Positions 34,768 through 56,430 of a stretch of 64,000 nucleotides of DNA are shown here, one piece after another. Location: the NCBI GenBank assembly GCA_947258705.1, contig CAMYJA010000004.1:1-64000 (forward strand), in the 5' to 3' direction. Under the pieces are notes generated by a model. The model worked only from the letters and a program-made list of their open reading frames with translations, had not been told where the DNA came from and ran no database searches. Each line of letters opens with the position of its first letter. Positions within the stretch are counted from its first letter, which is position 1. The stretch comes from an uncultured Hyphomicrobiaceae bacterium. GTDB lineage: Bacteria > Pseudomonadota > Alphaproteobacteria > Rhizobiales > CAMYJA01. The position numbers were made by a program, and so were the translations under genes.

Positions 34768-34786
34768 GGACCCTTGGTCCCTTGTC

Positions 34787-34941: not shown

Positions 34942-34959
34942 TTCCCGCCTTCGCGGGAA
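34942..34959. repeat. REP-like hairpin TTCCCGC / GCGGGAA
   Basis: 7-bp stem with loop CTTC inside a longer context beginning TCTGGATTCCCGCC. This resembles the widespread proteobacterial intergenic element of the type GGATTCCCGC-loop-GCGGGAA. Single copy in this window. Confidence 0.6.
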
Positions 34960-35015
34960 AGACGAGGAGTGTGTTAGTTTTTGCATACAACTCAATCTCG
35001 TGGTGAGGAGGCGCA

Positions 35016-35027
35016 GCCACTTGTGGC
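35016..35027. repeat. Short hairpin GCCAC-TT-GTGGC in mosaic A
   Basis: 5-bp stem with 2-nt loop, flanked by GCGC on both sides (35011-35014 and 35030-35033) that could extend it through an internal loop. Confidence 0.5.
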
Positions 35028-35080
35028 GAGCGCCGTCTCGAACCATGAGCGACATATCGAATTGTTTGAGTTTGCCGCTT

Positions 35081-35130
35081 CATCCTTCGAGACGACACGG
35101 ACCACAAGCGGTCCGTGTCCCTCAGGATGA
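35081..35130. repeat. Nested palindromic element CATCCTTCGAGACG...CTCAGGATGA
   Basis: Arms CATCCT and AGGATG enclose a 9-bp stem ACACGGACC / GGTCCGTGT with a 6-nt loop (35095-35118). The outer arms with the motif CATCCTTCGAGACG are a familiar intergenic repeat of Hyphomicrobiales genomes, where the central stem varies (from memory). Confidence 0.7.
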
Positions 35131-35213
35131 GGCCGAGAAGTCTTGCGGTCGGACACCCGGACGATGGTCGGATGGGCACCCGGCATCGAGATGCACTTCG
35201 CGGGTGTTTGTTT

Positions 35214-35280
35214 TGTCTCGGGCTTTGTATTCGCTCACGGCCATATCCGCGCCTAAGGCGCGGGGCCTCCGCGGGGGCGG
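35214..35280. repeat. Mosaic hairpin repeat module M2, copy A
   Basis: Matches 49981-50047 at 62 of 67 positions. Core stem CCGCGCC-TAA-GGCGCGG at 35247-35263. It begins with the leader TCTCGGG...TCGCTCACGG, a version of which also precedes module M1. Confidence 0.88.
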
Positions 35281-35337
35281 CACTAAATGCCGGAGCACGC
35301 TTGTGCTCAGTCCGAGCCGACATAGGAATGTCGGCTC
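35278..35337. repeat. Row of three hairpins after M2 copy A
   Basis: CGGCA-CTAAA-TGCCG (35278-35292), GAGCAC-GCTT-GTGCTC (35293-35308) and GAGCCGACAT-AGGA-ATGTCGGCTC split into 10-bp arms (35314-35323 and 35328-35337), almost directly abutting. Stems differ, lengths 5-10 bp. Confidence 0.7.
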
Positions 35338-35469
35338 CTCCGTTGAGATGCATTGTTACGCTTGTCCGTACATCGTTATTGCGCCGACCAGGACGGCTCC
35401 GCCTACCCTGGCGGCGGGCGCTGCCCTCGCTGGTGTTGAGTTGTCCGCCGGGCTGATCTTGAGCGCCGA

Positions 35470-35529
35470 TATAAACTACTGAGGTTTGGTTCGGCTGGCC
35501 CGATATGCTCATGCGGCACGGTTGGAGAT
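35470..35529. repeat. Oligopeptidase tail repeat, copy A (overlaps gene 3' end)
   Basis: 51 of 60 positions match 49905-49964. The right part is the last six codons and stop of the S9 oligopeptidase gene (ISNRAA-stop on the minus strand); the left part is its 3' flank. Confidence 0.85.
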
Positions 35530-37683: not shown

Positions 37684-37715
37684 CAATCTCTCCGGTCAGG
37701 ATTTCATCGTCAGGT

Positions 37716-38156
37716 TTAAGTCTCGTCTTCGTCTCCGCTTTCGGCGCTGCCGGGTTCGAAATTCAGTGCGGCACCGTTTATGCAATAGCGGAGGCCTGTG
37801 GGTTGAGGGCCATCCGGAAAGACGTGGCCGAGATGGGCCTCGCACTTGCTGCAACGCACCTCGGTGCGTGTCTGGAACAGCTTGCGGTCCGTATGTTCGC
37901 TCAGACTGTCTTCGTTTGCCGGCGCATAGAAGCTCGGCCAGCCGGTTCCGGAATTATATTTCGTCCGGGAAGGGAACAGTTCGGCGCCACAGCAGACGCA
38001 TTGATAGGTGCCCTCGCGCTTATTGTCGTTGTATTCATGGCTGAAGGGCGCTTCTGTCCCCGCCTCCCTGGTGATGTGGTATTGTTGGGGGGTGAGTTTA
38101 TCTTTCCATCCGGTATCAGATTTGTCCGTGGGGGCGTTTTTTTTCTGGCTGGTCAT
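37716..38156 (-). CDS. msrB: Peptide-methionine (R)-S-oxide reductase MsrB
   Basis: 146 residues. Zinc CxxC pairs (CVCCGAEL and [10 protein letters not shown]) and the catalytic Cys in [11 protein letters not shown] near 128 are present; GWPSF is a substrate-pocket hallmark. Reduces R-methionine sulfoxide using thioredoxin; cytosolic. It lies 33 nt upstream of the oligopeptidase gene on the same strand. Confidence 0.95.
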
Positions 38157-38413
38157 GACCTGGTTTTTTCCGATGAGGCTGGTTGCTTTTTAATGAGATA
38201 GCTTCTCAGGAGCCCGGTTGCAAATGCCGCCCAGGAGGCATGCTATAGATTGCCGGGTCCATTTTTCCCGGAAAGTACCTATATGGGCTGGCAACGGGAA
38301 ACAAATTTACTTTAGAAAAAGGTACTTTCCGACCGGCGGGGCTTGCTTTCATCGATTGGGCTTTGACGATGAATATGCTGCAAAAGTTCGATGTCAATAA
38401 GACGGGCACGCAT

Positions 38414-39202
38414 ATGCTCAAAACACCGATTGTTCTTTTTAGTATATTTAGCGCGGTTGCCGTCGCCGCAATTCTCGCTCAGGATCCGGCATATGCAGCG
38501 GTCGAAGGCGCGTCGAAAAAGGCTCGACCTCAGCAATCATGTCGTGGGCTATACGTCGCTTGCCATATTCGTACTGGCTTGCGGCGTGGTGATGATCGAG
38601 GAATTTACGCATCTGCGTAAATCCAAACCAGTTATTTTGTGCGCCGGTATTTGGCACTGATCGGAGCGGTCTATGCGGCGAATGAATTGACCCAAGAGGT
38701 CGAGAAGGCGGTTCGCCACAATATCCTCGAATATGCCGAGCTCTTTCTGTTTTTGCTGGTGGCCATGACTTACATCAACGCCATGCAGGAGCGCGGAGTG
38801 GGATACGCTGCTTTTCTTCTTGGGGGTGGTTCTGTGCGTCGGCGGTCTCGGATTTGTAGGTTATCTGGCGATAGTTTCCGAGGCGATGTGCACGCAAATG
38901 GGGCCGACATTTTACAATGTCATGGTCGGTATTTTGTCGGCAATCATCGATAATATTCCGGTGATGTTCGCGGTGCTGACAATGAATCCCGAGATGTCAC
39001 ACGGTCAGTGGCTTCTGTTTACCCTGACGGCCGAGGTGGGGGGGGCTACTGTTCATCGGTTCGGCTGCTGGCATTGTCTTGATGGGGCAGGCCACGCGGT
39101 CATTATACTTTTTTCGGTCACCTCAAATGGCTGCCCGCCATCGCCCTTGGCTATGCCGCCAGTATACTCATGCATATCTGGCTGAATGCATCTTTGTTCT
39201 AG
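38414..39202 (+). pseudogene. nhaD: Decayed NhaD-type Na+/H+ antiporter
   Basis: Pieces of an NhaD-like antiporter in several frames: a signal segment MLKTPIVLFSIFSAVAVAAI, then LDLSNHVVGYTSLAIFVLAC in another frame, then IGAVYAANELTQEVEKAVRH, then WDTLLFFLGVVLCVGGLGF, then NIPVMFAVLTMNPEMSHGQW, then GSAAGIVLMGQA and FFGHLKWLPAIALGYAASIL ending in MHIWLNASLF-stop at 39200. Frame changes are inferred near 38518 (AAAAA), 38653, 39046 (G run) and 39108 (T run). At about 38798 MQERG jumps to WDTLL, removing the middle of the protein, roughly 200 codons judged from memory of NhaD. No functional antiporter can be made. Confidence 0.88.
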
Positions 39203-40054
39203 CTCATCGCTGCGGCTCGGCTGCGCCGATTGGGAGACGGCCATTTGAACGCATCTTTGCCGGCCGGCGCCGATAGCGGGACCGAAACCGGACTATACCG
39301 ATAGCCGATGCAGCATATACACAGGTATTTCGGCGGCGGAAGTATTATTATTGTGATGCGAAATTTTGGCACGGGAGTATTGAATTGTTTTCGACTTAAT
39401 CATATCTCATACTTTTAATATAGTGGTTTGCAGTATTGATGTGCGACAAGGGGAAAGACTTTGATCCGGACCTGCGGCAATTCGACCTTTAAGATTAATT
39501 CGCAATTGTGCAAACTATACATGAAGGTCCTGGTGGTGATGCTATTTAAAGGGTGCGACATGGTTCGGCCGAGCCGGCCGCCGGGACAAGGTTTTGAAAA
39601 AAATGTACGAGGTGTGGCACAGCGCATTGTTGCAAAATATGGTTTTTCTGATAAATGAATTTTCTCATTTTTAGAAATTCTCGGCATCCCTGTAATTGGA
39701 CGGACATTCGCGATTACATCAATTATGTTCGGCACTGATTATTTTTAGAAACGGCTTTTATTTGATTCATTGAAACAGTATTTCTATATTGTACTGTACG
39801 ATGATGTTAGCCGTTTACTATATTTTGTTAAATTCTTGTTCTTTTAACATAAGTTTTTTAGAAATACTTAGGATAAACAGCAAGGGCCTTTTCGTATGCC
39901 GTCCGGAATTTGTACCGGTCGTGTATTGGCAATGAGTTCGTAAATTAAGTACACGATGCGACAATCCTGAAGTAAATAAGGATCGCTGAGGTGACTTAGG
40001 TTTTAAATGCCGTTCCATTCGGGCGGTATTCATAGAATTTGGAAGGAGAAAAAC
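39203..40054. other. 852-bp AT-rich intergenic region before mucR
   Basis: No convincing gene; the strand towards mucR is clearly AT-rich, especially 39660-39890. An open frame of 45 codons at 39521-39658 lacks a ribosome-binding site. A long AT-rich leader is common for mucR genes, which are autoregulated by binding AT-rich DNA (knowledge); several T-A-rich stretches here could be such sites. No terminator for the nhaD remnant is seen. Confidence 0.6.
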
Positions 40055-40468
40055 ATGGATGAAGCCAAGGTGAGCAATGAGCTCGTTGAGCTCTCAGCCG
40101 ATATTGTCTCTGCGTTTGTGTCGAATAACCCGGTACAGGCTGGAGACTTGCCTACTCTTATAGGCGATGTGCATGACGCTTTAATGAAGGCTTCTCAAAA
40201 GAGCCTGACGCCACAGCGGGAGGAGATCAAGCCTGCCGTTCCAATAAAGAAATCGATTACCCCCGATTATATTATATGTCTTGAAGACGGTAAAAAATAC
40301 AAATCGTTGAAACGACATTTGCGTACACTTTACAATCTCTCACCCGAGGAATACCGCGAGAAATGGGGTTTGCCCCACGACTATCCCATGGTCGCTCCGA
40401 ATTATGCCGCGGCCAGGTCAAATCTGGCCAAGAAAATGGGACTTGGTCAGAAACGTAAAAGCAATTGA
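40055..40468 (+). CDS. mucR: MucR/Ros zinc-finger transcriptional regulator
   Basis: 137 residues, H-NS-like repressor family of alphaproteobacteria. C-terminal part: a Cys in [20 protein letters not shown] with His partners (LKRHLRT), followed by [25 protein letters not shown], the family hallmark; the zinc finger has the C...H...H spacing of Ros. Residues 1-45 form the oligomerisation part. GGAAGGAG lies 7 nt before ATG 40055; an upstream in-frame ATG at 40007 adds a non-conserved stretch. It is followed by a strong terminator and is probably autoregulated. Confidence 0.95.
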
Positions 40469-40494
40469 TAATTTATACCTGAAGTATTTTGTTA

Positions 40495-40526
40495 AAAACC
40501 CACTCTCGAGAGTGGGTTTTTTTTCG
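40495..40526 (+). terminator. Intrinsic terminator of mucR
   Basis: AAAACCCACTCTCGAGAGTGGGTTTTTTTT-type hairpin: stem AACCCACTCTC / GAGAGTGGGTT with a T run ending about 40525. Placed 27 nt after the mucR stop. Confidence 0.92.
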
Positions 40527-40637
40527 GCATGCAATAAGGCGCTTTTATAAATCATTAAATATAGAAATAAGTAATACACGTAAATATACTTATGTGTGAT
40601 AATAGTTAGCTCAGTTATCAACTTGGGCTAACTTGTA

Positions 40638-41075
40638 ATGGTAAGAACACATTGTAACTCACAATTAACAGGCTTTCTCAAGCCAAGAATACACCCCTCC
40701 ATCAACTATATAAGATCAAGCGATCATGGGGCGGCATTTCGCAAAATGCTCTGCCACGCGATCGGCGAGATCGTGGTGCGTGTTCTGGGTGGCGGGAGTG
40801 ACGGGCTTTGGGGACATACGCGAGGCGACTCCTCAGTGGCTCGGAACCGGCAAACAGCCATGTATCTTGCTCATGTTGTTTGCGGTTTGAACTTTACCGA
40901 GATCGGGATTGCGTTTGCGCGAGACCGTACGACGGTTTCACATGCCTGCCGCCTGGTTGAGGACCGCAGGGACGATCCTTATGTCGACCGGTGCCTGGAC
41001 AGTCTGGAGCATAGTATTCTTTGCCTTATGGATACCGGTTTTTATTTTGACGGCGCAAATCAGGAGGCGTGCTGA
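40638..41075 (+). CDS. DnaA C-terminal-like helix-turn-helix protein
   Basis: 145 residues. The C-terminal 60 (ARNRQTAMYLAHVVCGLNFT then EIGIAFARDRTTVSHACRLV) matches the DnaA-box-binding domain IV signature, in which RDRTTVSHAC parallels DnaA's HSTVxHA. There is no AAA+ domain. It therefore may bind DnaA-box-like DNA as a regulator. The start may instead be ATG 40746. It directly abuts the DUF6456 gene, and the pair next to mucR recurs in Hyphomicrobiales (from memory). Confidence 0.8.
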   Translation: MVRTHCNSQLTGFLKPRIHPSINYIRSSDHGAAFRKMLCHAIGEIVVRVLGGGSDGLWGHTRGDSSVARNRQTAMYLAHVVCGLNFTEIGIAFARDRTTVSHACRLVEDRRDDPYVDRCLDSLEHSILCLMDTGFYFDGANQEAC

Positions 41076-41951
41076 ATGGAGTCGCCAGAAGATGAGGCGA
41101 TCGACAGACAGGCGTTGCTGCAGGCGCTTGGTTTTCTGTCCAGACCGCACGCATTTATTCAGTACAAAGAATTAAATTCCGCGGGCCGTGCATCGGGGAA
41201 TGCGCATATCGATGTGCTACAGCTTCGGTCCGGCGGCAACGCCAAGGCCATTGGTGTCATACGCAGTCCGACCTTGATGGAAATGCTCAGGCAGGGGTGG
41301 ATTTCATTGAATGCGGACAAATGGCGGCTGACAAGGGCCGGCCGGTTTTATGTCAAGCGAGGCATGGCTCAATCGGATCCGTTTCAGGAGCAGCATCAGG
41401 AGCGCGGGGTGGCGTCGATAAGCGCAGAGGGGCGGACGGAAAACGTTGTCATCAATCATGCGGAAAGCCCCCTGGCCTGGTTACGGAAAAGACGCGGCAA
41501 GAAAGGGCGGCCGTTTTTGTCCAATACGCAATTCGATGCCGGTGAAAAGCTTCGCGCCGATTTTCATTTTGCCCAGATGTCACCTCGCGTGACGGCAAAT
41601 TGGGGCGACCGGGTCAATGCCAGGAAGGGACTCGGGCATCCGTCGCAAGGATCGGACATCGCCGATCATGTCATCGCTGCCAAAAAAAGGGTGGAGCGCG
41701 CTTTGGAGGCCGTGGGGCCGGAGCTGTCAGGCGTGCTTATAGATATTTGCTGTATCATGAAGGGGCTCGAGGCGGTGGAGAAAGACAAGGGCTGGCCTCA
41801 GCGCTCGGGCAAGATAGTCTTGTCGCTCGCGCTCAACAGCCTGGCACGGCATTACGGTTTGCTGGGCGATGACCGGCCCGGCGAGAGGCGGGGAAAAATA
41901 GAGCATTGGGGGGCTGGCGATTTCAAGCCGAACCTCGATACCTGGCAATAA
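41076..41951 (+). CDS. DUF6456 domain-containing protein
   Basis: 291 residues. The N-terminal half looks like a winged-helix DNA-binding part (SPTLMEMLRQGWISLNADKW, then RLTRAGRFYVKRG), and the C-terminal half carries DUF6456: GEKLRADFHFAQMSPRVTAN near 150, then DVAA-like DIADHVIAAKKRVERALEAV, then DICCIMKGLEAVEKDKGWPQ, ending SLALNSLARHYGLLG. It starts on the base after the HTH gene stop, so the two are a unit. Function is unknown; a regulatory role is inferred. Confidence 0.85.
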   Translation: MESPEDEAIDRQALLQALGFLSRPHAFIQYKELNSAGRASGNAHIDVLQLRSGGNAKAIGVIRSPTLMEMLRQGWISLNADKWRLTRAGRFYVKRGMAQSDPFQEQHQERGVASISAEGRTENVVINHAESPLAWLRKRRGKKGRPFLSNTQFDAGEKLRADFHFAQMSPRVTANWGDRVNARKGLGHPSQGSDIADHVIAAKKRVERALEAVGPELSGVLIDICCIMKGLEAVEKDKGWPQRSGKIVLSLALNSLARHYGLLGDDRPGERRGKIEHWGAGDFKPNLDTWQ

Positions 41952-41964
41952 AACGGATTGCGGA

Positions 41965-42396
41965 TCAGGCTCTTTCCATGGTGCTTTCAGCGTCGCTTTG
42001 TATGCGTTTGACCATTGAGGCCAGGCCGTTCGAGCGCTGGGGGGTGAGGTGATCGTTTAACTGGAGTTTATTGAGTATGGCGTTGATGTCCGTACCGGCA
42101 ATCTCGCGGGCCGTTTTGCCGGAGAAGATTTTCAACAAAATGGCGATGAGCCCGCGGACGATCATGGCGTCGCTGTCGCCGGTAAAGTTGAGCACGGGGG
42201 TCTGGTCTTCGCCTTTTTCTCCGATCGAAGTGGACAGCCATACCTGGCTTACACAGCCCCTCACCCTGGTGGTGTCATTGCGAAGTTCGTCAGGATAAGG
42301 CTCCAGCTCTTTCGCAAGATCTATAACGTAGCGGTATTTGTCTTCCCAATCTTCGAGAAATTCGAAGTCGGAAATAATGTTTTCTATTGTTGTCAT
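41965..42396 (-). CDS. sufE: SufE-family Fe-S assembly protein
   Basis: 143 residues from ATG 42396 (MTTIENIISDFEFLEDWEDK). Accepts sulfur from SufS-type cysteine desulfurase for Fe-S cluster assembly. The sulfur-carrying Cys is in TRVRGCVSQVWL near 51, in its usual place. The frame opens further upstream to 42522 but lacks similarity. Convergent with the DUF6456 gene by 13 nt; upstream on the same strand is a DUF5330 gene. Confidence 0.93.
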   Translation of the reverse strand: MTTIENIISDFEFLEDWEDKYRYVIDLAKELEPYPDELRNDTTRVRGCVSQVWLSTSIGEKGEDQTPVLNFTGDSDAMIVRGLIAILLKIFSGKTAREIAGTDINAILNKLQLNDHLTPQRSNGLASMVKRIQSDAESTMERA

Positions 42397-42482
42397 AGGC
42401 GCCAGATGATTGGTTGAAAGGTTTCTCCTTATATATAGGCGGCTTTGACAAAACACCATAGGTGGCGATGAACTATCGCGCT

Positions 42483-42878
42483 CTACCGGGATGCGTATGT
42501 TCTGCGGTTGGGGGTGTGCCATTCGGGGATCAGGTCGCCGATTTGCAGCGTATTGCGGGAGCGGGCGCCATTAGCTGAAGATGCTGCCGGTTTGAACCAT
42601 TCATTGCGGCGTTGCGCATTGGTTCGGGTGGCGCCGTATTGGGCATCGCTGCTGCGGGTGATGATGTCGGCGACAAGGTCGCGGCCGGTTTGGGCTTTTT
42701 GGGCTAAATTACTCCAGGACGGATCGAACTCGGCGCAAATTTCAACATTGGCGCAGACCTGGGAGGCAAAGCCGATGACGGCACTCGTCTTTCTGTGGAG
42801 CTCCTGCTTGCCCGCTTCGTCTGTCGGCAGAAGAAGTATTACCAGGCAAAGCCAGATAATCGTTCGTATAGAAAACAT
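42483..42878 (-). CDS. DUF5330-like small exported protein
   Basis: 131 residues. N-terminal hydrophobic signal (IRTIIWLCLVILLLP), then a helical region with two Cys (SQVCANVEICAEFDPSWSNL), a Gln/Asn-rich tail and NTLQIGDLIPEWHTP. This matches DUF5330, a small Rhizobiales protein usually beside sufE. Periplasmic location predicted; function unknown. A near-palindrome TTTAGT...ACTAAA at about 43002-43022 lies in the upstream gap. Confidence 0.72.
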   Translation of the reverse strand: MFSIRTIIWLCLVILLLPTDEAGKQELHRKTSAVIGFASQVCANVEICAEFDPSWSNLAQKAQTGRDLVADIITRSSDAQYGATRTNAQRRNEWFKPAASSANGARSRNTLQIGDLIPEWHTPNRRTYASR

Positions 42879-43131
42879 AATTCCCTCGCTGTTCGTTTTA
42901 TGTGAGGGATACGATATCGAAGGCGGTCTAAATATTTGAAAGAATCCAGGCTCAAATTCTACTCAAAACAAACTATAAATAACCTCCAATGAGACTATAG
43001 ATTTAGTCCAAATTGAACTAAATTTTACATGCCTGCAAAGATGAGGCGCGATTTGCAACCCATCGTTGAATCGAATGGGCCGGAAGCGATGTATGAGAGA
43101 GCCCTTGTTGAGGCATTTGCCAGTGAACGGC

Positions 43132-44151
43132 CTAACCGCTTTTTACCGGCAGCTTGATATGTTCACCGAGCAAGCGCTGCAAGTCGGGCAGGGCGTGGCG
43201 CCTGACAAGGTTGAGAGCCTTGATGCCGAGAAGCTTTTCAATGAGGGCGATGCCGGCTTCGGTATTGGCGGCGGGGCCGGTGATGAGATCCGGTTTCATG
43301 CCGAAAGCCTTTTCGATGCCAAGGACGGCGTAGGGATCGAGGGCGCTCAGCACCAGCATCGAAAGTTTATTTTCGAGCAGCTTCATGGCGACCGAACCAT
43401 TATAGGGTTCGAGGGGCGAGGCCCCCAGTTCCGCGATCAGAACGTCGGCGTCGGTGTTGGCGATTTTCGACAGGAGATTGAGGGTGGACGCTTCAAATTC
43501 GTCGGGGGGGCAGACGGTCGACGGCAGTCCGGCATCGACGAAGTCGAAAATGTGGTCGGCCCCGGCATCGCGAAAACTCAAAATGTCGCGATATCGGCCG
43601 GCGCCCGCGAACTTACCCGCCGCGACCTTGAGCCCCATGCGTTTCAACTCATGAATTATGATGCGTCCAGAAGTGGTTTTACCGGCCGACATCGACGAGC
43701 CGATGATCAGAATGACGGGCATGTCCAGCTCCTTCGGCTCGGCGGACGAGACGAAGTCCTGCATGGTGGTTTTGCCGTCGCGTACAATGTGTCCCTTATA
43801 TTGCATTTTCATCAAGGCCGGCATCAGGTGCGACTGGGAGGTCATTTTTCCGAACAGTCCGCCCGAGGTGAGCGCATGCAGCCTGCCATCGTCGCCAATG
43901 GCATCCCAGTCGCCAACCGCATCCACGGTCGCCGCCCGCTTGCCAAACGCCCCGATGACGAGATCCCCCTCTAGAACAGGGGCAAGCCGGCCCGAACAGA
44001 GCTCGACCAGATAAGACTGTGTCGACCGGCCGAGGACCTCGCACATAACATAGTCGCCGGTGGCCCATTGGTCGCGGTCCAGTGCGGCGCACTCATAGGG
44101 ATGGGTTTGCAGGTCGGAAATGCGGGTTACGGAGCTGTAAAACGGGTGCAT
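43132..44151 (-). CDS. P-loop NTPase, unassigned (DUF1611-like)
   Basis: About 339 residues. The N-terminal domain is not recognised; the C-terminal part has Walker A GSSMSAGKTTSGRIIIHELK near 150, a second acidic motif FVDAGLPSTVCPPDE near 200, and IAELGASPLEPYNG near 238. It resembles the DUF1611/DgcN type, where a P-loop domain acts on small-molecule amines, but the assignment is weak. ATG 44151 is preceded by AGGAG 6 nt before it; an in-frame ATG at 44157 is closer to the SD. It ends 20 nt before the next gene region and follows the M20 peptidase gene by 8-14 nt. Confidence 0.65.
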   Translation of the reverse strand: MHPFYSSVTRISDLQTHPYECAALDRDQWATGDYVMCEVLGRSTQSYLVELCSGRLAPVLEGDLVIGAFGKRAATVDAVGDWDAIGDDGRLHALTSGGLFGKMTSQSHLMPALMKMQYKGHIVRDGKTTMQDFVSSAEPKELDMPVILIIGSSMSAGKTTSGRIIIHELKRMGLKVAAGKFAGAGRYRDILSFRDAGADHIFDFVDAGLPSTVCPPDEFEASTLNLLSKIANTDADVLIAELGASPLEPYNGSVAMKLLENKLSMLVLSALDPYAVLGIEKAFGMKPDLITGPAANTEAGIALIEKLLGIKALNLVRRHALPDLQRLLGEHIKLPVKSG

Positions 44152-44164
44152 GGGCATCTCCTTT

Positions 44165-45340
44165 TCAACTGGTTGTGAATGGTTCGAGTGGCGGCGCCAG
44201 CAGCAATAAGGCCAGAAGGGCGGTTCGCTCTATGGTTCTGTCCAGATCGATATGTTCATGCTCCGCGTGGGCGCCGTCGCCGACTGCGCCGAGGCCGTCC
44301 AGCGTTGCCGTTAACTGGCTTGTGGTATTTCCGTCCGAGCCACCGCCGGCCATGCCCTCCTGCAATTCAAGGCCGAGTTCCGCGCCAAGGCGCTGCGACA
44401 TCTGCCAAAGGGCATGATTGCGGTTCGTGCGCTCCAGTGCGGGCCGACCGATGCTTCCGGTTATTTCAAGACTTGTACCGGGCGTGTTCGTTTCGAAAGA
44501 GCGGATGCTGTCGCCAATACGTTCGGCATCGGCCTGAGTCCTGGTGCGGACATCGATGATCGCCTTGCTCATCGGCGCGATCACATTGGGACGCATGCCG
44601 CCGTCGATCGTGCCGACATTTACGGTAATGCCTTTTTCCGGATCGTTGAGGGCGAACAGTTTTTGAATGACATGGGAGAGTTCCAGAATGGCGCTGGCGC
44701 CGGCCTCCGGATCGAGGCCCGCATGGGCCGCTTTGCCGTGAACGGTGACATGATACCGTCCAACGCCCTTGCGCTCGGTTTTTAACCGGCCGGCCGGTCC
44801 GAGCGACGGCTCGAGCACGAAGACCCGGTTCATGTGGCGCGCAAGCCGCTTGATGTACCGTGTCGATTCGCGGCTTCCGATTTCTTCGTCGGAATTGAAG
44901 AACACGACCGGGACGACGTCCGGTTCGAGGCCCAGTTCCTTCAGGGTTTTCAAGGCAAAAACGGCCTGCGTTATGCCGGCCTTCATGTCGTAGATGCCGG
45001 GCCCCCGGACGATATTTCCGTCCACCTTGAAAGGCATTTTGTTCAAGGTGCCCAGCGGCCAGACGGTATCGTAATGTCCGAGCATCATCTGCACGGCGCG
45101 ATTATGTCCGCGTTGCGGGGGGCGGGCATATAACATGCCGCCGCTGGTCCGGCCGGGTATCAACGTGCAGGAAAAACCGATGTCTTCAAGGGCCGATGCA
45201 ATATGCGAACGGACGAGCGATTGCGCCTCCGGTTCGGTCGAGGGGGATTCGGCTTTGGTCAAAACTTCCAGAAAACCGACAAGCCCGCTTTCGCATTTTT
45301 TCAGATGGTCAAGGATCGCCCTTGCAGGGAGACCGGTCAT
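44165..45340 (-). CDS. M20-family metallopeptidase (glutamate carboxypeptidase type)
   Basis: 391 residues. Zinc-ligand region HYDTVWPLG near 88 and GPGIYDMKAG near 113, the catalytic Glu in FNSDEEIGS near 148, and the dimerisation insert between about 180 and 300 are seen; VEPSLGPAG and AHAGLDPEAGASAI are the usual domain-boundary landmarks. Acts on N-acylated or C-terminal-acidic peptides or amino-acid conjugates in the cytosol. It is the middle gene of a tight minus-strand trio, with the upstream flavin reductase gene ending 11 nt before its start. Confidence 0.9.
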   Translation of the reverse strand: MTGLPARAILDHLKKCESGLVGFLEVLTKAESPSTEPEAQSLVRSHIASALEDIGFSCTLIPGRTSGGMLYARPPQRGHNRAVQMMLGHYDTVWPLGTLNKMPFKVDGNIVRGPGIYDMKAGITQAVFALKTLKELGLEPDVVPVVFFNSDEEIGSRESTRYIKRLARHMNRVFVLEPSLGPAGRLKTERKGVGRYHVTVHGKAAHAGLDPEAGASAILELSHVIQKLFALNDPEKGITVNVGTIDGGMRPNVIAPMSKAIIDVRTRTQADAERIGDSIRSFETNTPGTSLEITGSIGRPALERTNRNHALWQMSQRLGAELGLELQEGMAGGGSDGNTTSQLTATLDGLGAVGDGAHAEHEHIDLDRTIERTALLALLLLAPPLEPFTTS

Positions 45341-45351
45341 GTGCGCCTCCG

Positions 45352-45954
45352 CTATTTCTTCATGCCTTTCGGGAAGGGAAACGACTTCGTTTCCCTGATC
45401 TCGGCAAAGCGCCCTGGATTGAGATAGCTCAGGAGCGGTGCATTATAGAGCAATTCCTGATCGTCCTGATCGGCCGAGCGGAGAGCCGCCTCATCGACAT
45501 GGGCAGCCTTGATGCGTCCGACAATGAGACTGTTCGTATCGAATTCGTCGATTATCCGGTCCAGTTCACACTCGAAAAAGAGATAGCCGTCGGACACGAG
45601 AACGCCATCAACGGCTTCGGCAGGAAAAGTATCGACGACATCAAGCGCGTGCTTGTGACCATCGTCGCAGCGCGGAGCCGCGGTCAGGGAGGTTTGCACC
45701 CATTGAGACGGTTTTGGGTAGCTGACCGTAAAGACACCCTCTCTCTTGACGTTGTGATAGGTGGCGTGGCGCGGGGTGCAGACAAAACCGAAATGGTTTT
45801 TCCAGCTCAACGGCATGGCCATGTGTTTGGGAGCAAGATCATAAGTGCGGTCAGGCTCCCTGGTTCCGATAATCACCAGGGGAAACACCATGAATACGCG
45901 GTCCCAGATCGGGTAATTCATCTCGAAGGATACGAGACTGGATGGCTTCGACAT
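45352..45954 (-). CDS. Flavin reductase-like (FMN-binding split barrel) protein
   Basis: 200 residues. FMN-binding features: PLSWKNHFGFVC near 52, NVKREGVFTVSYP near 72, and a C-terminal YLNPGRFAE. This is the HpaC-like flavin reductase domain that reduces FMN or FAD with NAD(P)H, here without a monooxygenase partner in view. The start is ATG 45954 with GGAGG 5 nt upstream; the frame opens four codons earlier. First gene of the trio with M20 and P-loop proteins. Confidence 0.85.
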   Translation of the reverse strand: MSKPSSLVSFEMNYPIWDRVFMVFPLVIIGTREPDRTYDLAPKHMAMPLSWKNHFGFVCTPRHATYHNVKREGVFTVSYPKPSQWVQTSLTAAPRCDDGHKHALDVVDTFPAEAVDGVLVSDGYLFFECELDRIIDEFDTNSLIVGRIKAAHVDEAALRSADQDDQELLYNAPLLSYLNPGRFAEIRETKSFPFPKGMKK

Positions 45955-46203
45955 GGCTACCTCCATATTGTCGTTGCCGCCAGTATGGTTTCTGATCGTT
46001 GGGACGTCTTTGATTTAGATCTAATGATACGGCGCTGCCGAAAAATTGCCGGGTGGCGAAAATTTCGGCCGGAGGGCCGGTGAAACAGGTTTAATTCTTA
46101 TACGGATGATTACCTGGGCCGGGGTGTTATCCTTAGCGCTTCTTTAAGTAAAATGTGAGAATTTGGCGCCATATGTTCACTTTTTGGCGGGAATATTGAG
46201 CTC

Positions 46204-48054
46204 ATGACAGTGGGAATTCGGCAGTTCGGTCAAGGCCTGCGCCATGCCCTGGACTTCATTTCTCTGAAAATACCGGACATGGTGCATGATAGTGCGCTTT
46301 CCGACCCGCTTCTCAAGCTGCGGCACCGGAATTTTCAAATTACGCATGTTGCCAGCGCCATACTCGCATGCATCGTTCTCATCGTTTATTTCAACATTCA
46401 CGATGTCAGAAAGCTGCCTTCCTATCTCTTCTATTTCTGTTTCTCATCGCCGCTTATAATAGTGCTTTATCTGTGGCGGACGGGGCGCATCGATATTGCG
46501 CAATTCCTGTCCTCGCTCAACCTTTCCGCGCTGGCCGGCATTGCGGCCTGTTACACCGGGGGCATCAACTCACCGCTGGTTCTGTGGATGCTCATCGTGC
46601 CCCTTGAAGCGGCGCTCTCCAGGCGGCGCCTGATGACCTATATGGCGGTCTTCGTCAGTGGCCTGACATTGGCCCTGCTTTATTATTTGACCGTCAGCGG
46701 AAAGCTGCCGGAACCATTGGCGCCGAACATCAGCATGGAGCTTTTTACGTTTCTGAGTACACTTGCCGCTGTCGCCTATGCCGGGGGGATCGCGGTGACG
46801 GTGCAGAGGATGAACCGGATGTCATCGCGGGCGCTTCGCGTTAGCGACGAGAACTATCGATTTCTCGCGGATAATGCGACCGACCTCATCACCCGGCACG
46901 GGGTGGACGGTTCGGTCCGGTTTGCATCCCAGGCCTGTCACCGGATTATTGGTATCGAGCCCGAAGCCCTTGAACGCGATGGTTTTCTCGAATGGGTGCA
47001 TGAGGAAGACAGGGCGGCATTTCTGCACGCCATTTCCACCTCGGCCCGGAACAAGCTGACCATGTCGGAGGAGATCCGCGTATGCAAGGCCGCTGCGCCG
47101 TGCGGCGAGGGGCCCGGTTGCGAATATATCTGGATCGAAATGCGCTGCAGACCGGTTTCGGATGTGCGCAAGGATTACATAAAACAGTCGGCGGTCAGCG
47201 AGGTTCTCGCGGTGTCCAGGGATATCTCGCTGCGCAAGGCTCAGGAGTTTGAGCTTGAGCGGGCCAAGGAACATGCGGAAAGCGCCAGCCGCGCCAAATC
47301 CCTGTTCGTGGCAAGCATCAGCCACGAACTTCGCACGCCGTTGAATGCGATTGTCGGTTTTTCGGACATCATTGCGAGCGAACTCAGCAAGGCGGATGTG
47401 GATGAGAAACTGATCGAATATATCGGGATCATCGAGGAGGGCGGACATCATTTGAAGAAGATCGTCAATGATATTCTGGATATGTCCAAGATCGAAGCAG
47501 GAAAGTTCGAGATTTCGCCAGAGGCCTGCGATCTCAACGAATTGATCAAATTGAGCTGCGGAACGGTTAAGAGCCTGGCGCAACAGCGCGAAATTTCGAT
47601 CGATCATGGCGCGTGCGAGGGCGGTCTCGAGATCGTCTGCGACCTGCACGCCGTGACACAAATCATGTTCAATCTGCTTTCAAACGCAGTGAAGTTTTCA
47701 CATGAAGGCGGGATTGTGAAAGTCACGACAGAGATGTGTGGCGAAAATGTTCTGATCAAGGTGATCGATCAGGGCGTGGGCATTGCCGCCGAAGACATCG
47801 CGAAACTGGGCAAACCTTTTGTGCAGGTCGACAACGCCTACAGCAGAAAAGCCGAAGGCACGGGGCTCGGGCTCAGCGTGGTCAACGGCCTGATCGCGCT
47901 CCATAACGGCCGCATGAGTATCGACAGCGAAATAGCGGCAGGGACGGTGATCAGCGTTGCATTGCCCATTGACGGACCGGAGGGCGCGGCGATGCGGCGT
48001 GGGACGGACGGGATTGATGATGAAGCGGGGCGGGAAACGGCGCTGGCATCGTGA
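46204..48054 (+). CDS. PAS-domain sensor histidine kinase
   Basis: 616 residues, inner membrane. Six hydrophobic segments in the first 210 residues (for example HVASAILACIVLIVYF, LYLW, and MELFTFLSTLAAVAYAGGIA) without a large periplasmic loop, a PAS domain about 215-345, a HisKA domain with ISHELRTPLNAIVGFSDII (phospho-acceptor His 374), and a HATPase domain with LLSNAVKFSHEGG, VIDQGVGIAAEDI and GTGLGLSVV. No receiver domain and no response regulator gene nearby. It is followed by a peptidoglycan-binding protein gene 115 nt away. Confidence 0.93.
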   Translation: MTVGIRQFGQGLRHALDFISLKIPDMVHDSALSDPLLKLRHRNFQITHVASAILACIVLIVYFNIHDVRKLPSYLFYFCFSSPLIIVLYLWRTGRIDIAQFLSSLNLSALAGIAACYTGGINSPLVLWMLIVPLEAALSRRRLMTYMAVFVSGLTLALLYYLTVSGKLPEPLAPNISMELFTFLSTLAAVAYAGGIAVTVQRMNRMSSRALRVSDENYRFLADNATDLITRHGVDGSVRFASQACHRIIGIEPEALERDGFLEWVHEEDRAAFLHAISTSARNKLTMSEEIRVCKAAAPCGEGPGCEYIWIEMRCRPVSDVRKDYIKQSAVSEVLAVSRDISLRKAQEFELERAKEHAESASRAKSLFVASISHELRTPLNAIVGFSDIIASELSKADVDEKLIEYIGIIEEGGHHLKKIVNDILDMSKIEAGKFEISPEACDLNELIKLSCGTVKSLAQQREISIDHGACEGGLEIVCDLHAVTQIMFNLLSNAVKFSHEGGIVKVTTEMCGENVLIKVIDQGVGIAAEDIAKLGKPFVQVDNAYSRKAEGTGLGLSVVNGLIALHNGRMSIDSEIAAGTVISVALPIDGPEGAAMRRGTDGIDDEAGRETALAS

Positions 48055-48169
48055 AACCGGCCGGGCGGTATGGCGCGGAATAGTGCGCCGGGATTCAGGG
48101 TCTGTTTACGAAGCTGGTGAATAATGCGGTTTCTGAGTTTCAAGTATGGGTAATTGATCGGACTTGTTG

Positions 48170-49009
48170 ATGGCCCCCATTAGTGTAAGCGTGATATTAC
48201 GGGTTTTCGGTGTGCTGTTTTTAGGCATGCTGGTGAATACGCATTTTTTCCAGAACGGCCAGAGGGAAGGCCAGATCGCGCGTCTGGATGCGCAAAAACC
48301 AGAGCAGGGCGTTTCGGAGGCGCTTGTGGAGACGGCTTCGCGGACCCCATCCGATGAGTGGCGGGCACGGCTCAGACGGCAGGGATTGCCGCCGGCATTG
48401 GGCATGACTGACAGCGGCGCGCAGATTGCGGCCAAGGCGCCAGAGCCGCCCAAGGCACGGGCCGATCTGTTGCCGCAGCCGCAAAATCAGGAAAAACCGC
48501 TCGAAAGCGTCAGGCCGGACCATGCGCCGCAAGGGGCTGCGACGGGCGAGACGCCATCGCGCCCGGCTTCAAAACTTACGCGGGCCGTGCAAAGGGAACT
48601 TACATCGCAAGGTTACGAGCCGGGACCCGTGGACGGCGTCGAGGGGCTGATGACACATGCCGCGATTATGGCGTTTCAATACGATAACGGGGTTGCGCCC
48701 ACCGGCCGGCCGACGGAGGCCCTGCTGAAACAGATCATTCTTGGCGGGCCGTCGCACGCTCAACCGGACACCGAAACAGAAAAGGGTGTGGAAAACCGGC
48801 GCCGGGTCATCAAAACCGTACAGTTGAAACTTAGAGAGCTTGGCTATAAAGCAGGAGCGGCAACCGGTGTGATGGACGAAGAGACCCGGGCGGCGATCAG
48901 AGAGTTCGAGAAGTATTCCGGCCTGGTGGCAACCGGCCGGGTTTCCGGACGCCTGATCGGAAAACTGTCCAATGTGCCGCGTCTGCGCGTGGGGGCGGCG
49001 CTGAATTGA
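48170..49009 (+). CDS. Membrane-anchored peptidoglycan-binding domain protein
   Basis: About 279 residues from ATG 48170 (a TTG lies two codons before). A single N-terminal hydrophobic helix (LRVFGVLFLGMLVNTHFF), a Pro/Glu/Arg linker to about 130, then two PG_binding_1 units: VQRELTSQGYEPGPVDGVEG near 143, and VQLKLRELGYKAGAATGVMD near 223. Binds peptidoglycan in the periplasm. Downstream of the kinase and 66 nt before DUF1491. Confidence 0.9.
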   Translation: MAPISVSVILRVFGVLFLGMLVNTHFFQNGQREGQIARLDAQKPEQGVSEALVETASRTPSDEWRARLRRQGLPPALGMTDSGAQIAAKAPEPPKARADLLPQPQNQEKPLESVRPDHAPQGAATGETPSRPASKLTRAVQRELTSQGYEPGPVDGVEGLMTHAAIMAFQYDNGVAPTGRPTEALLKQIILGGPSHAQPDTETEKGVENRRRVIKTVQLKLRELGYKAGAATGVMDEETRAAIREFEKYSGLVATGRVSGRLIGKLSNVPRLRVGAALN

Positions 49010-49075
49010 CGGTTTGACGGTCCCGGTCCGAACGGCAGGCAGCAATTCCCGGTTCGACATTATTGGTGATTTTCA

Positions 49076-49432
49076 ATGCGCCTTAAATCGGAAATGTGGG
49101 TGAAGGCCTATCTGCGTGCGCGGGCAGGCGACAATATCATGGCGGTATTGTCGCGCCGGGGCGATCCGGATGCGGGCGCCATTTTTATTCTCGTTCACCT
49201 TCTGGACGGCATGTGCCAGCTTTATGGACCGGCACCGGCAGGGCTTGCGGTGGTCGACCGGGAAAGACGGTGGGTCAACTGCTTTGCGGACGAGACCGCC
49301 TCGCAAGAAGTCGCCGATGCGTACATTCAGCAGCAAAGCGACATGGATCCCGACCTGTGGCTGATCGAGGTCGAGGACAGCAAGGGGCGGCATTATCTCG
49401 GAGATGCCTTTGAGCCGGCGGCGGACATCTGA
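49076..49432 (+). CDS. DUF1491 family protein
   Basis: 118 residues. MRLKSEMWVKAYLRARAGDN at the start and DPDLWLIEVEDSKGRHYLGD at the end match DUF1491, a small alphaproteobacterial family of unknown function. No signal peptide and no cysteine cluster. It follows the peptidoglycan-binding gene, suggesting, weakly, a cell-envelope or cell-cycle context. Confidence 0.9.
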   Translation: MRLKSEMWVKAYLRARAGDNIMAVLSRRGDPDAGAIFILVHLLDGMCQLYGPAPAGLAVVDRERRWVNCFADETASQEVADAYIQQQSDMDPDLWLIEVEDSKGRHYLGDAFEPAADI

Positions 49433-49613
49433 ATATGGCTCTTTTACCACAGTTGAGCACTAAACCCGCCAGACAAGAAATCAACGGGCACTGATTAATT
49501 CTTTGTTAAGAGGTTCGGGCTTCAAATGGTGCGAGCGGGGTGTAGTGCGTCTTATTGCTTACGATTTGATGGCTGTTCCGGAACGGGTTGCTTCCGGACT
49601 TTGGAGGGCAAAA

Positions 49614-49796
49614 ATGGCGGTGATACTCGATTTCAGTCCGACGCAGAACGCGCAAGACAAACGTCTGGTGCGGGAGACGGCGCAAAAGCTCGGACAGGTT
49701 ATTATTTTTCCAGGCGTGCGTATCGAACGCAAGGCAGATGCAAGCGCATCCAAGATGGGTGCGGGCAAGACCGACGGATTGAAGAGTTCGGATTGA
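49614..49796 (+). CDS. Small 60-aa protein
   Basis: MAVILDFSPTQNAQDKRLVR, then ETAQKLGQVIIFPGVRIERK, then an Asp/Lys/Gly-rich end. GAGGG lies about 8 nt before the ATG at 49614; the frame is open up to 49503 but without a better start. The FPGVRIER pattern resembles short proteins of the order annotated as hypothetical; no domain is known. Not signal-like. Confidence 0.5.
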   Translation: MAVILDFSPTQNAQDKRLVRETAQKLGQVIIFPGVRIERKADASASKMGAGKTDGLKSSD

Positions 49797-49823
49797 GAGC
49801 GAGACGGCCTTGGGGTTTGTTTT

Positions 49824-49904
49824 TCGCTCGCGGGTTTCTGTTTTGCCTCACGTGCTGCTCGCCGTTACACGGCGGCACTCCGGCGGGGCGGGCCTAAGGC
49901 CCGG
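49824..49904. repeat. Mosaic hairpin repeat module M1, copy B
   Basis: 49838-49904 is identical to 34701-34767. Contains CGCCGT-TAC-ACGGCG (49860-49874) and GGGCC-TAA-GGCCC (49890-49902). Confidence 0.92.
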
Positions 49905-49964
49905 TATTAACTACTGAGGTTTTGTTCGGCTGACCCGACATGGTTATGCGGTGAGGTTGGAGAT
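49905..49964. repeat. Oligopeptidase tail repeat, copy B (orphan)
   Basis: Matches 35470-35529 at 51 of 60 positions. On the minus strand it reads ISNLTA-stop, the stop at the same place as in the S9 gene (ISNRAA-stop); the match ends after six codons. There is no gene body attached. Confidence 0.85.
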
Positions 49965-49980
49965 AGCCTAGAGGCGGGAC

Positions 49981-50047
49981 TGCCTCGGGCTCTATTTTCG
50001 CTCACGGCCATATCCGCGCCTAAGGCGCGGGGCCTGCGCGGGGGCGG
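49981..50047. repeat. Mosaic hairpin repeat module M2, copy B
   Basis: 62 of 67 positions match 35214-35280. CCGCGCC-TAA-GGCGCGG at 50014-50030. Confidence 0.88.
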
Positions 50048-50082
50048 CGCATTTTATACGATCAGCTTATCCGTGCTCGCCA

Positions 50083-50200
50083 GACACTAAGTGTCGGCTC
50101 CGTCACCCCTGGCGGCGGGCGCTTTAAAACCGGGCGCGGGGCCGCTTAGTGGCCGCTCCCACACCAAGTGTGCGGGCTGACCTTGAGCCCCGGGGTCAGC
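50083..50200. repeat. Row of hairpins after M2 copy B
   Basis: GACAC-TAA-GTGTC (50083-50095), GGCCGC-TTA-GTGGCC with one G-T wobble (50140-50154), CACAC-CAA-GTGTG (50160-50172), and GCTGACC ... GGTCAGC (50176-50200), the last reaching the stop codon of the DUF1254 gene. The stretches at 50107-50123 and 50173-50188 recur in region A. Confidence 0.75.
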
Positions 50201-50771
50201 GGTCCACTGATTTGCATTTTGCGAATGTCAAATGGGTCAGGGCCTCGTCCGCATAGGACTCGCTGATAATTGGTGCACGCACCATCACAATCCCTTCCGT
50301 ATCATAGGGCTTTACGGGTATGCTCTGTTCGATCGGGGCGTTCGATCCAAAGCCGAGATCGGGAAGGTCGTCATCGGCGAGCGAGATCTTGATGTCCACA
50401 TCCCGTGATTTGAGACCGCTGCCGGACAGGGTGTAGATATTTTCTCCCTTGCGGTTGAAAACCGCGACGGACCAGAGTTCGTTAAGCAGGCGGGCCTTAA
50501 CATTGAGGGGGGTATCCTTGATGTTATAGCGGCAAAACGCATAGCGAATATCTGGCGCCATGAAGGGCAGCGGCTGGGCGTCGGGACTCACGGGCGGCAA
50601 TATGACCATTGTGTTGGGCGTAAGTACCCGGCCGATGCGATCCCATGCCTTGTGTTCGGAGATCAAGGGGAGGGCGAGAATGGTGGTGATGTGGATCAGG
50701 GCGCCAAGAAGCAGGCCGGCTGCAAACCAGTAAAGCGTCCACATGTTCAGGAATTGACGGATCAGCCGCAT
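50196..50771 (-). CDS. DUF1254-domain membrane protein
   Basis: 191 residues. One N-terminal membrane helix (YWFAAGLLLGALIHITTILA), then a domain matching DUF1254: TPNTMVILPPVSPDAQPLPF near 51, then DIRYAFCRYNI and WSVAVFNRKGENIYTLSG. Paired with a DUF1214 gene with a 10-nt overlap, as in many alphaproteobacteria. Cell-envelope protein of unknown function. The 3' end lies inside a hairpin of the mosaic repeats. Confidence 0.88.
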   Translation of the reverse strand: MRLIRQFLNMWTLYWFAAGLLLGALIHITTILALPLISEHKAWDRIGRVLTPNTMVILPPVSPDAQPLPFMAPDIRYAFCRYNIKDTPLNVKARLLNELWSVAVFNRKGENIYTLSGSGLKSRDVDIKISLADDDLPDLGFGSNAPIEQSIPVKPYDTEGIVMVRAPIISESYADEALTHLTFAKCKSVDR

Positions 50772-51364
50772 GAAACCCTCCTGATCGTGGGCAGCCTTCG
50801 GCGTTGCGTGGCGTTGGCCGCGTTCAACTCCGCGTTTGCAGGCGCATGCAGCCGGAACACGAGCGTGACCTTGTCGTTTGGATCGGAGGGCAGCCAGTTG
50901 CCGTCCCTTGGCTCGCTGGACAATCTGATCTTGTATCTGCCCGAGGTGGCGCGCAGAACGGTGGAACTGTTGAAGGTGTATTTTTTGGGTTTGTTGCGTT
51001 GCAATTTACCGGTTCCGTCGAATGCGGTGAGGCTCCACCAATCGCTCAGGAGTTCATTGCTTTCCAGGAGATATTCGCAGGAACCGAGCAGCCGGTAACC
51101 TTCGCTGTCGGTTTTGGCTATGAAATACTGGATGTTTTTGGAAGACAGGGGCAGCCGTCCCGAGCGGGACAGATGCGCGCGCGCATAAGGATCGGCGTCG
51201 GGACGGCCGGCGGTTGTCCAGCTTTTCCATTGGCCGTCACGTTCCGTCGTCAGGCGGAATCCATGTTCGAGCGTCATCCATGCGGACCCGAAGCCGCTGA
51301 TCAAAGCCGTCAGGATAAAGATTGTCAGATTGGTCGCCTTGGTCAGTTTTTGGTCTCTATCCAA
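50762..51364 (-). CDS. DUF1214-domain membrane protein
   Basis: 200 residues with one N-terminal helix (NLTIFILTALISGFGSAWMT). DUF1214 features: GYRLLGSCEYLLESNELLSD, WWSLTAFDGTGKL and RYKIRLSSEPRDGNWLPSD. It overlaps the DUF1254 gene by 10 nt and lies 69 nt downstream of the PBP1A gene on the same strand, so the three are probably one unit. Confidence 0.88.
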   Translation of the reverse strand: MDRDQKLTKATNLTIFILTALISGFGSAWMTLEHGFRLTTERDGQWKSWTTAGRPDADPYARAHLSRSGRLPLSSKNIQYFIAKTDSEGYRLLGSCEYLLESNELLSDWWSLTAFDGTGKLQRNKPKKYTFNSSTVLRATSGRYKIRLSSEPRDGNWLPSDPNDKVTLVFRLHAPANAELNAANATQRRRLPTIRRVSCG

Positions 51365-54401: not shown

Positions 54402-55007
54402 ATGGGGCGGAACAGCAAAAAGGTGTGGGTGACCGTCAGGCGCCTTTACGAAAAGCATATAGGAACGGTCGCGGATATCTGCGCTGAGTACGATATTACC
54501 GTGGCGGCACTTTATTACCGCGCCGGCAAAGAGGGCTGGAAAAAACGCGGCAGGCGACGGTGCAACCTAGTAGCCGGACCATCGACGAAGAACATTTCGA
54601 AGAAAACCGCGAAGAAGAGCGCCGACGCCGAGAAAGGCGAGCGGGTGGAAAAGGGTGCGCGGAGTGAGAGCGCTCCCCCCGGTTTGCCGAGCGTTGGCGT
54701 GCGGTTGTACGAGGTGCTTGAATTGAAGCTTGAGGAAATCGAAGGACGCATCGCGCGGGGCGACAGGCTGACACCGGAGGAAAACGAGCGGGAGCAAAGA
54801 GTGATTGGTAACTTGATCAGGAATTTTGACAAGCTGACGGAATTTAATGAGCGACGAAAACGGGGAACGTCAAAACGGGGAGCATCCGGAGGACGCGGCG
54901 CGGGGGGCAGCGGACAGGACACGGATCTTTCAAAACTCAACGCGGTGCAGTTCCGCGAGGAAATTGCACGACGCATTAGGATGTTTGAAGCAACACGAAA
55001 GTCTTGA
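54402..55007 (+). CDS. GTA small terminase subunit-like protein (g1)
   Basis: 201 residues. The N-terminus has an HTH (VRRLYEKHIGTVADICAEYD, then ITVAALYYRAGKEGWKKRG) like small terminases that select DNA; the middle is Lys/Ser/Gly-rich, and the end LSKLNAVQFREEIARRIRMF is reminiscent of GTA TerS C-termini. It is longer than the roughly 100-residue Rhodobacter protein. In a GTA, TerS lacks phage pac specificity, so random host DNA is packaged. The frame overlaps the large-terminase gene. Confidence 0.7.
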   Translation: MGRNSKKVWVTVRRLYEKHIGTVADICAEYDITVAALYYRAGKEGWKKRGRRRCNLVAGPSTKNISKKTAKKSADAEKGERVEKGARSESAPPGLPSVGVRLYEVLELKLEEIEGRIARGDRLTPEENEREQRVIGNLIRNFDKLTEFNERRKRGTSKRGASGGRGAGGSGQDTDLSKLNAVQFREEIARRIRMFEATRKS

Positions 55008-56292
55008 CCATTTTCTGGCTCGGCTCGAGCCGGCCGAGGTCGAACGGATCTGGTACGATTGGCAGGTCTGGGCGCGCGACGACCAACTGCCTCCGCACAC
55101 CGGCGGCAATGGCGGCGGATGGCGGAACTGGCTGGTTTTGGGCGGGCGGGGTGCGGGCAAGACGCGGACAGGCGCGGAATGGGTGCGCTCGCAGGCGCTG
55201 GGCATCGCACCGCTCGCCGATGAGGTGTCTCAGCGCATAGCGCTGGTGGGCGAGACGATTGCCGCGGTGCGCTCGGTAATGATCGAAGGGGTGTCGGGCC
55301 TTCTGGCGGTGCATCCGGATCATGAACGGCCCAAATTCGAGCCGTCCAAGCTGCAACTTGTCTGGCCCAACGGCACGATCGGTCAGATTTTTTCCGCCGA
55401 AAATCCGGCGGGGCTCAGAGGGCCGCAATTTGCCGCTGCATGGTGCGACGAGATCTGCAAATGGCGCCACGGCATCGAGACCTGGGACATGCTGCAGTTC
55501 GGATTGCGGCTCGGCCGCGCGCCGCGCGTGGTGGTGACGACAACGCCGAAACCTATCGCGCTCTTGAAGAGAATAATGATCAGCCCCTCGACGGTGACGA
55601 GCCGGGCATCGACAATTGCCAATGAAGCGAATTTATCATCGGCCTTTCTCGAGGAGGTGACGCGGCGCTACGGCAATTCGCGGCTCGGACGGCAGGAACT
55701 TGACGGCGAGCTTATCGAGGACCGGGAGGATGCGCTTTGGATACGTGACTGGTTCGAGCAGTCGCGGGTGCGGGACGTGCCGCAACTGGCGCGGATCGTG
55801 GTGGCGGTGGACCCGCCGGTCTCAAGCGGATCGCGCGCCGATGCCTGCGGTATCATCGTCGCGGGGCGGGGATTCGACAAGCGGGCCTATGTTCTGGCGG
55901 ACCGGTCGACGCGCGGGCAGTTGCCGCTTGACTGGGCGAAGGAAGTTGTGGCGGCTTACGGTGCTTTTTCAGGCGACTGCATTGTCGCCGAGGTGAACCA
56001 GGGCGGCGAACTGGTCGAGAACCTGCTGCGGCAGGTGAATCCGGGTGTGCCTGTCAAGAAAGTGCATGCGACGCGCGGGAAATGGGTGCGGGCCGAGCCG
56101 ATTTCGGCGCTTTACGGGCGTGGCCTCGTTTCGCATGTGGGCGGGCTTGAAAGGCTCGAGGACCAGCTATGCGATTTTGGCCCCAACGGGCTGTCATCGG
56201 GTCGAAGTCCGGACCGGCTTGACGCACTTGTGTGGGCTCTGACGGAGTTGATGCTGGGCGGATCTACGGATCCGAAAATCAGGCTTGTCTGA
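54985..56292 (+). CDS. GTA large terminase subunit TerL (g2)
   Basis: About 435 residues. Walker A LGGRGAGKTRTGAEW near 44, a Walker B-like AAWCDEICKW near 145, and a C-terminal nuclease part with VVAVDPPVSSGSRADACG and VAEVNQGGELVENLL. Packages DNA into the capsid. The start is uncertain: TTG 54985 or TTG 54964 keep a small overlap with g1, while ATG 54847 would overlap it by 160 nt. Conserved text begins with LARLEPAEVERIWYDWQVWA, just after 54985. A hairpin module separates it from the portal gene. Confidence 0.92.
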   Translation: MKQHESLDHFLARLEPAEVERIWYDWQVWARDDQLPPHTGGNGGGWRNWLVLGGRGAGKTRTGAEWVRSQALGIAPLADEVSQRIALVGETIAAVRSVMIEGVSGLLAVHPDHERPKFEPSKLQLVWPNGTIGQIFSAENPAGLRGPQFAAAWCDEICKWRHGIETWDMLQFGLRLGRAPRVVVTTTPKPIALLKRIMISPSTVTSRASTIANEANLSSAFLEEVTRRYGNSRLGRQELDGELIEDREDALWIRDWFEQSRVRDVPQLARIVVAVDPPVSSGSRADACGIIVAGRGFDKRAYVLADRSTRGQLPLDWAKEVVAAYGAFSGDCIVAEVNQGGELVENLLRQVNPGVPVKKVHATRGKWVRAEPISALYGRGLVSHVGGLERLEDQLCDFGPNGLSSGRSPDRLDALVWALTELMLGGSTDPKIRLV

Positions 56293-56331
56293 TTATGCTT
56301 AGAGGTGTTTTTTTGCCTCGGGTTTTGTTTT

Positions 56332-56430
56332 TCGCTTACGGGTGTTTGTTTTGCCTCACGTGCTGTTCGCCGTTACACGGCGGCACTCCGGCGGGGCGGC
56401 ACTTAGTGCCGAGACGCGCCACTCAGTGGC
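56332..56430. repeat. Mosaic hairpin repeat module M1, copy C, inside GTA operon
   Basis: 56347-56396 is nearly identical (one substitution) to the same part of copies A and B, then the variable hairpin CGGCAC-TTA-GTGCCG at 56397-56411 replaces GGGCC-TAA-GGCCC. It is followed by GCCAC-TCA-GTGGC (56418-56430). The 177-nt spacer between terminase and portal holds nothing else. Confidence 0.9.

Follow-up and report, generated by a model that had tools for sequence, protein, structure and literature searches.

Repeats joined to the 3′ ends of genes are described for the ERIC/RU elements: in one of the cases given in PMC2759123, an amidase gene lacks its normal stop and has an RU-1 (ERIC) copy fused to its end, and in another, an RU-2 overlap of 16 nt lengthens an ABC transporter protein by four residues. 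REP elements, according to the account of them in PMC12306157, are often found 1–20 nt past a stop codon, where they can reduce translation. In the window analysed here (the whole 64,000-nt stretch of DNA), we studied a 60-nt piece at 49905–49964 that matches the 3′ end of an oligopeptidase B gene. We consider it likely, at roughly 85%, that this piece belongs to a mosaic repeat, within a block that is non-coding and carries a palindrome, and that the end of the oligopeptidase gene has joined another copy of this block.

The similarity reported in the earlier note is real: 49905–49964 and 35470–35529 share 51 of 60 nucleotides (E 1.1e-12 by BLAST within the window), and the wider pair 49901–49964 and 35466–35529 shares 54 of 64. 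A chance match of the two pieces is ruled out by this value together with an E of 1.3e-8 from the covariance model described below. The oligopeptidase B gene (35509–37686, minus strand) encodes a 725-aa protein with Peptidase_S9_N and Peptidase_S9 domains (Pfam) and with solved relatives, and its protein finds a single match in its own genome. Its last six codons (ISNRAA) and its stop (35509–35529, minus strand) lie inside the block, and the alignment of the 725-aa protein to solved oligopeptidase B stops at residue 720, which is the I of ISNRAA. At the equivalent place in the other piece (49944–49964, minus strand), the same register reads ISNLTA followed by TAA, as previously noticed, whereas the TGA at 35509–35529 is a true gene end. 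The ISNLTA register is not a gene, and the observation that no gene body precedes it also holds, the open frame covering only 7 codons back to the previous stop. The match between the two pieces reaches back to the sixth-last codon of the oligopeptidase gene and no further into the gene body.

The piece at 49.9 kb was taken for an orphan gene end, which it is not, because the block that contains it recurs at 28 places in the genome. A full copy of this block, of about 100 nt, occupies 49890–49989 (plus strand; covariance model E 7.2e-23), with 49905–49964 in its middle. It is defined by an alignment of 21 copies, from which the oligopeptidase copy was left out and on which the covariance model was built. 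The block begins with the palindrome GGGCCTAAGGCCC or a variant of it, followed by a core and then by a distal part past 49964 that is common to most other copies. The palindrome (49890–49902) has 98.8% of its cells paired in the alignment, with two-sided changes at two of its five pairs. The small sample of stems includes GGGCC/GGCCC, GGCGC/GCGCC and GGCAC/GTGCC, in which the letters covary among copies; the loop remains close to TAA or CAA. The block thus carries, like REP/RAYT elements, a palindromic unit with compensating changes, located at its 5′ end. For the whole block, RNAalifold yields only this 5′ palindrome and a weak helix of 7 pairs. No Rfam family reaches its gathering score in 34500–50300, and Rfam thus provides no known RNA family as the identity of the block.

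The copy at the oligopeptidase gene (35466–35529, plus strand) is truncated. It lies at the distal end of a mosaic array, array A, and overlaps the last 21 nt of the gene; the sequence beyond 49964 that is present in other copies is absent there. The covariance model recovers this copy (35451–35550, E 1.3e-8) although it did not contribute to the model. A search of the genome (2.77 Mb in 66 contigs) with 49895–49990 gave 23 matches at E ≤ 1, self included. With the covariance model, similar copies are found dispersed at no fewer than 28 places at E ≤ 1, of which 27 at E ≤ 2.4e-5, the total being a lower bound since 150 of 1228 candidates were scored. The model found no copy in 198 other genomes of the order (199 searched) or in 288 others of the class (289 searched, partly the same genomes), under stricter filters and with few candidates scored per genome; as far as tested, the block family is restricted to its own genome. 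Unlike the ~100-nt block, the neighbouring mosaic block 49981–50050 is more widespread: of 60 other genomes of the order, 9 contain relatives of it (the DNA query was 49800–50050, and nearly all matches fell on 49981–50050). One exact pattern of the block searched in viral contigs gave no match. Mobilisation by a Y1 (RAYT-type) transposase is disfavoured: PF01797 (Y1_Tnp) has no match in the own genome, while the control was positive in 5 of 14.

A minus-strand stop in the ISNLTA/ISNRAA register is present in at least 20 of 26 block copies, whether or not a gene is nearby, and this is a low figure, since at least three of the six stopless copies (L049:4277, L049:4458 and L054) were, as judged by eye, read in the wrong register. 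The stop is therefore a sequence feature of the block. Among the 26 copies, only that of the oligopeptidase has a known gene running into it; a few others are preceded by open stretches of up to 151 codons. The ends of the block vary strongly between mosaic contexts. These data bear on an earlier proposal that the repeat family includes a gene-end module capturing or providing stop codons. The part of it that stands is that the repeats most likely supply the stop of the oligopeptidase gene and that array sequence forms that of one other gene; the idea of a specialised module fails, with only one copy in 26 known to be used in this way and the second gene using a different part of the mosaic.

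Several observations bear on the direction of transfer at the oligopeptidase end. In a tree of 22 copies, the oligopeptidase copy is sister to 49903–49989 (support 0.81), and the two group with a third copy (0.91) and are nested inside the family, with supports that rest on 62 nt and that mosaic exchange may disturb. The endings of oligopeptidase orthologs (95 of 109 loci, 84 distinct endings, after reverse or short-match loci were dropped) mostly read ALK[IV], A/T, G, K/R/L, A/T. On the profile of these endings, the ISNRAA tail scores 3.2 bits, as against a median of 10.2 and a lowest-tenth bound of 4.4 for the orthologs. Only 0.6% of mosaic frames score at least 3.2 bits, or 5.0% when the I is left to the gene. 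Given the many copies of the block, its conserved stop, the single oligopeptidase B, the truncated, nested copy at the gene, the low score of the ISNRAA tail and a second gene whose C-terminus is array sequence (below), the most likely source of the last five or six codons and the stop of the oligopeptidase gene is the repeat array that ends in it.

Array A, which carries a block copy at its distal end, stops within the 3′ end of the oligopeptidase gene. Read on its bottom strand, the block offers a short open frame and then a stop, and in the scenario that we propose the gene, once joined to the array, would read five or six block codons and terminate there. The transfer would have run from block to gene, and the two would have been joined at the distal edge of the array, presumably by insertion or by illegitimate recombination, perhaps at a few matching bases. 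Counting against this direction, ISNRAA still resembles the ending of the oligopeptidase family (the 0.6% of mosaic frames that do as well), which also fits the capture of a gene end by the repeat, and no empty site was seen in the 60 other genomes searched, each of which belongs to another family than this bacterium. Both the poor tail and its resemblance to the oligopeptidase family would follow if the junction had formed at a few matching bases.

The opposite direction, in which the block originated at the oligopeptidase gene, the mosaic capturing the gene's last ~20 bp and the following DNA before these spread through the genome, is the best surviving alternative, but a rather improbable one. 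It draws on the ITNRAA/ISNRAA reading of the block, which is nearer to the ortholog endings than are most mosaic frames (0.1 to 0.6% of them reach its scores). However, the copy at the gene is nested in the family rather than basal, the other copies have a common stretch past the gene junction, and the ISNRAA tail is poorer than those of most orthologs. An assembly error in repetitive DNA, as the source of the array–gene junction, appears less probable again: three contigs (C39, C25 and C11) do start or stop inside arrays and one block copy contains a run of N, but the junction at 35529 lies deep inside contig C4 without any N, the 725-aa frame is intact and its neighbourhood is conserved in relatives.

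The earlier note had also proposed that a second, divergent oligopeptidase gene was lost by recombination between repeats, and had asked for a search of relatives for such a gene at the locus of array B. A search with the oligopeptidase protein gave at least one match in 57 of 61 genomes, consisting of the own genome and 60 others, which come from different families of the order than the own one. As synteny marker we used the minus-strand gene at 50762–51364, one of the gene pair to the right of array B, which had been named DUF1254 and is actually DUF1214 (PF06742, E 3.6e-18, and relatives). Oligopeptidase B and a DUF1214 relative were found, by hand, on one contig in 32 other genomes, and in none of these 32 does an oligopeptidase lie within 5 kb of DUF1214; the relatives thus show no orthologous gene at this place. 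The distance between the two markers is 5.6–38 kb in 30 of the 32 genomes, with the markers far apart in the other two, and 13 kb here (35509–51364). The loss of a second oligopeptidase gene at 49.9 kb, except for its last codons, would explain the 51 of 60 matching nucleotides and the stop at the equivalent place, but it is hardly credible with a single such gene in the genome, none beside DUF1214 in relatives, a block recurring at 28 places, many of its copies gene-free, and a similarity that extends through downstream sequence and repeat context instead of the gene body. The case shows how the conserved stop of a repeat block can make it look like the relic of a gene.

A second gene of the same genome ends in array sequence, in a more drastic event of this kind. 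The distal end of the array L049:2031–2667 lies inside a gene for N-formylglutamate amidohydrolase (PF05013; L049:2626–3402, contig C4 98125–98901, minus strand), whose last residues, PGEGRDPDNPRFA, are array sequence, from a different part of the mosaic than the oligopeptidase block. In 36 other genomes with amidohydrolase matches, none among the matches listed extends beyond residue 248 of 258. Twelve of 24 amidohydrolase loci were read at their ends, the other 12 being dropped as reverse; in one of those dropped (L230), the local alignment reaches residue 258. The landmark HAL is present in 7 of the 12 loci read, which continue for 51–56 residues after it, as against 13 here. By these comparisons, the amidohydrolase has lost its native C-terminus, and 13 residues with a stop, all of mosaic repeat sequence, stand in its place.

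The two arrays of the window were delimited as repeat-coverage islands. Array A (34677–35529, plus strand) has matches elsewhere in the genome, and array B (49799–50187, plus strand) lies between a 60-aa ORF (49614–49796, plus strand), for which no protein family match was found, and an ORF at 50196–50771 (minus strand). In total, 43 islands, each covered at least twice by other repeats, were collected from the window and from loci L049–L067 and L199–L201, and their flanking frames were called by codon-position GC. The islands are intergenic, falling between called genes apart from slight overlaps at a few ends, and many of the flanking genes have Pfam matches. Gene 3′ ends lie at a median distance of 19 nt from an island (n = 45) and gene 5′ ends at 108.5 nt (n = 22; rank test, p = 3.4e-5); 25 of the 45 gene 3′ ends are within 25 nt of an island, versus 2 of the 22 gene 5′ ends. 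The upstream gene, in the direction of the block, faces the array with its 3′ end in 14 of 20 block-bearing islands, with gaps of −9 to 31 nt in 12 of these 14. The two exceptions are array B, 2 nt ahead of which the 60-aa ORF, below the limit of the gene caller, stops, and L059, whose island adjoins the end of a 97-residue ORF of uncertain status. Most arrays start no more than about 30 nt from the stop codon of the gene upstream, and their polarity is constant.

The array starts are alike, consisting of a T-tract and GCCTCACG or CGCTCACGG, and may represent a 3′-UTR element. A terminator near the oligopeptidase end finds no support in 34600–35800, where one terminator-like site was detected, no excess over the mean of 1.4 in shuffled sequences. 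A third short mosaic piece of the window (56311–56417) lies 18 nt behind a gene for the large subunit of terminase (54847–56292; Terminase_6N and Terminase_6C), in a cluster that may correspond to a prophage or a gene transfer agent. If arrays were selected against in promoters, this alone would favour gene 3′ ends, but it would leave the polarity unexplained. Overlaps of at least 20 nt with islands are limited to the oligopeptidase and amidohydrolase genes, both on the distal side. One could imagine, as an unlikely extension, a mosaic family acting as a polar gene-end element, whose arrays would be placed directly behind stop codons in one orientation by a non-Y1 route, and whose distal edges would invade convergent genes, repeatedly giving them new C-termini and stops. 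What may merit study here is the close and polar positioning of the arrays just after stop codons.

Among the systems to which this repeat can be compared, the Rhizobium-specific intergenic mosaic elements come from the same order and are likewise mosaic and intergenic, a likeness drawn from the title of the work in the reference list of PMC2873474. The palindromic elements of Rickettsia, as they are presented in PMC10969869 and PMC2229807, are also alphaproteobacterial palindromic repeats that change gene products by in-frame fusion; they differ in sitting within frames and keeping them open, whereas here the repeat ends the frame. REP elements resemble the present repeat in being palindromic and located within about 20 nt of stop codons; those of E. 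coli measure 14–40 nt in the description of PMC12306157, in contrast to the ~100-nt blocks and arrays of several hundred nt found here, where the Y1 transposase was not found. A further likeness is with ERIC/IRU/RU-1 and YPAL/RU-2 of enterobacteria, which are likewise short dispersed intergenic repeats joined to gene 3′ ends, where they replace the stop or add a few residues (PMC2759123, PMC2229807). Unlike them, and as compared by description rather than by sequence, the block described here is part of multi-block mosaic arrays and has a strand with a conserved stop near its edge. The fusion of repeat and gene 3′ end is a further case of the kind published for ERIC/RU, and the peptidase tail and the truncated amidohydrolase add two cases of a palindromic mosaic repeat rewriting the 3′ end of a gene.
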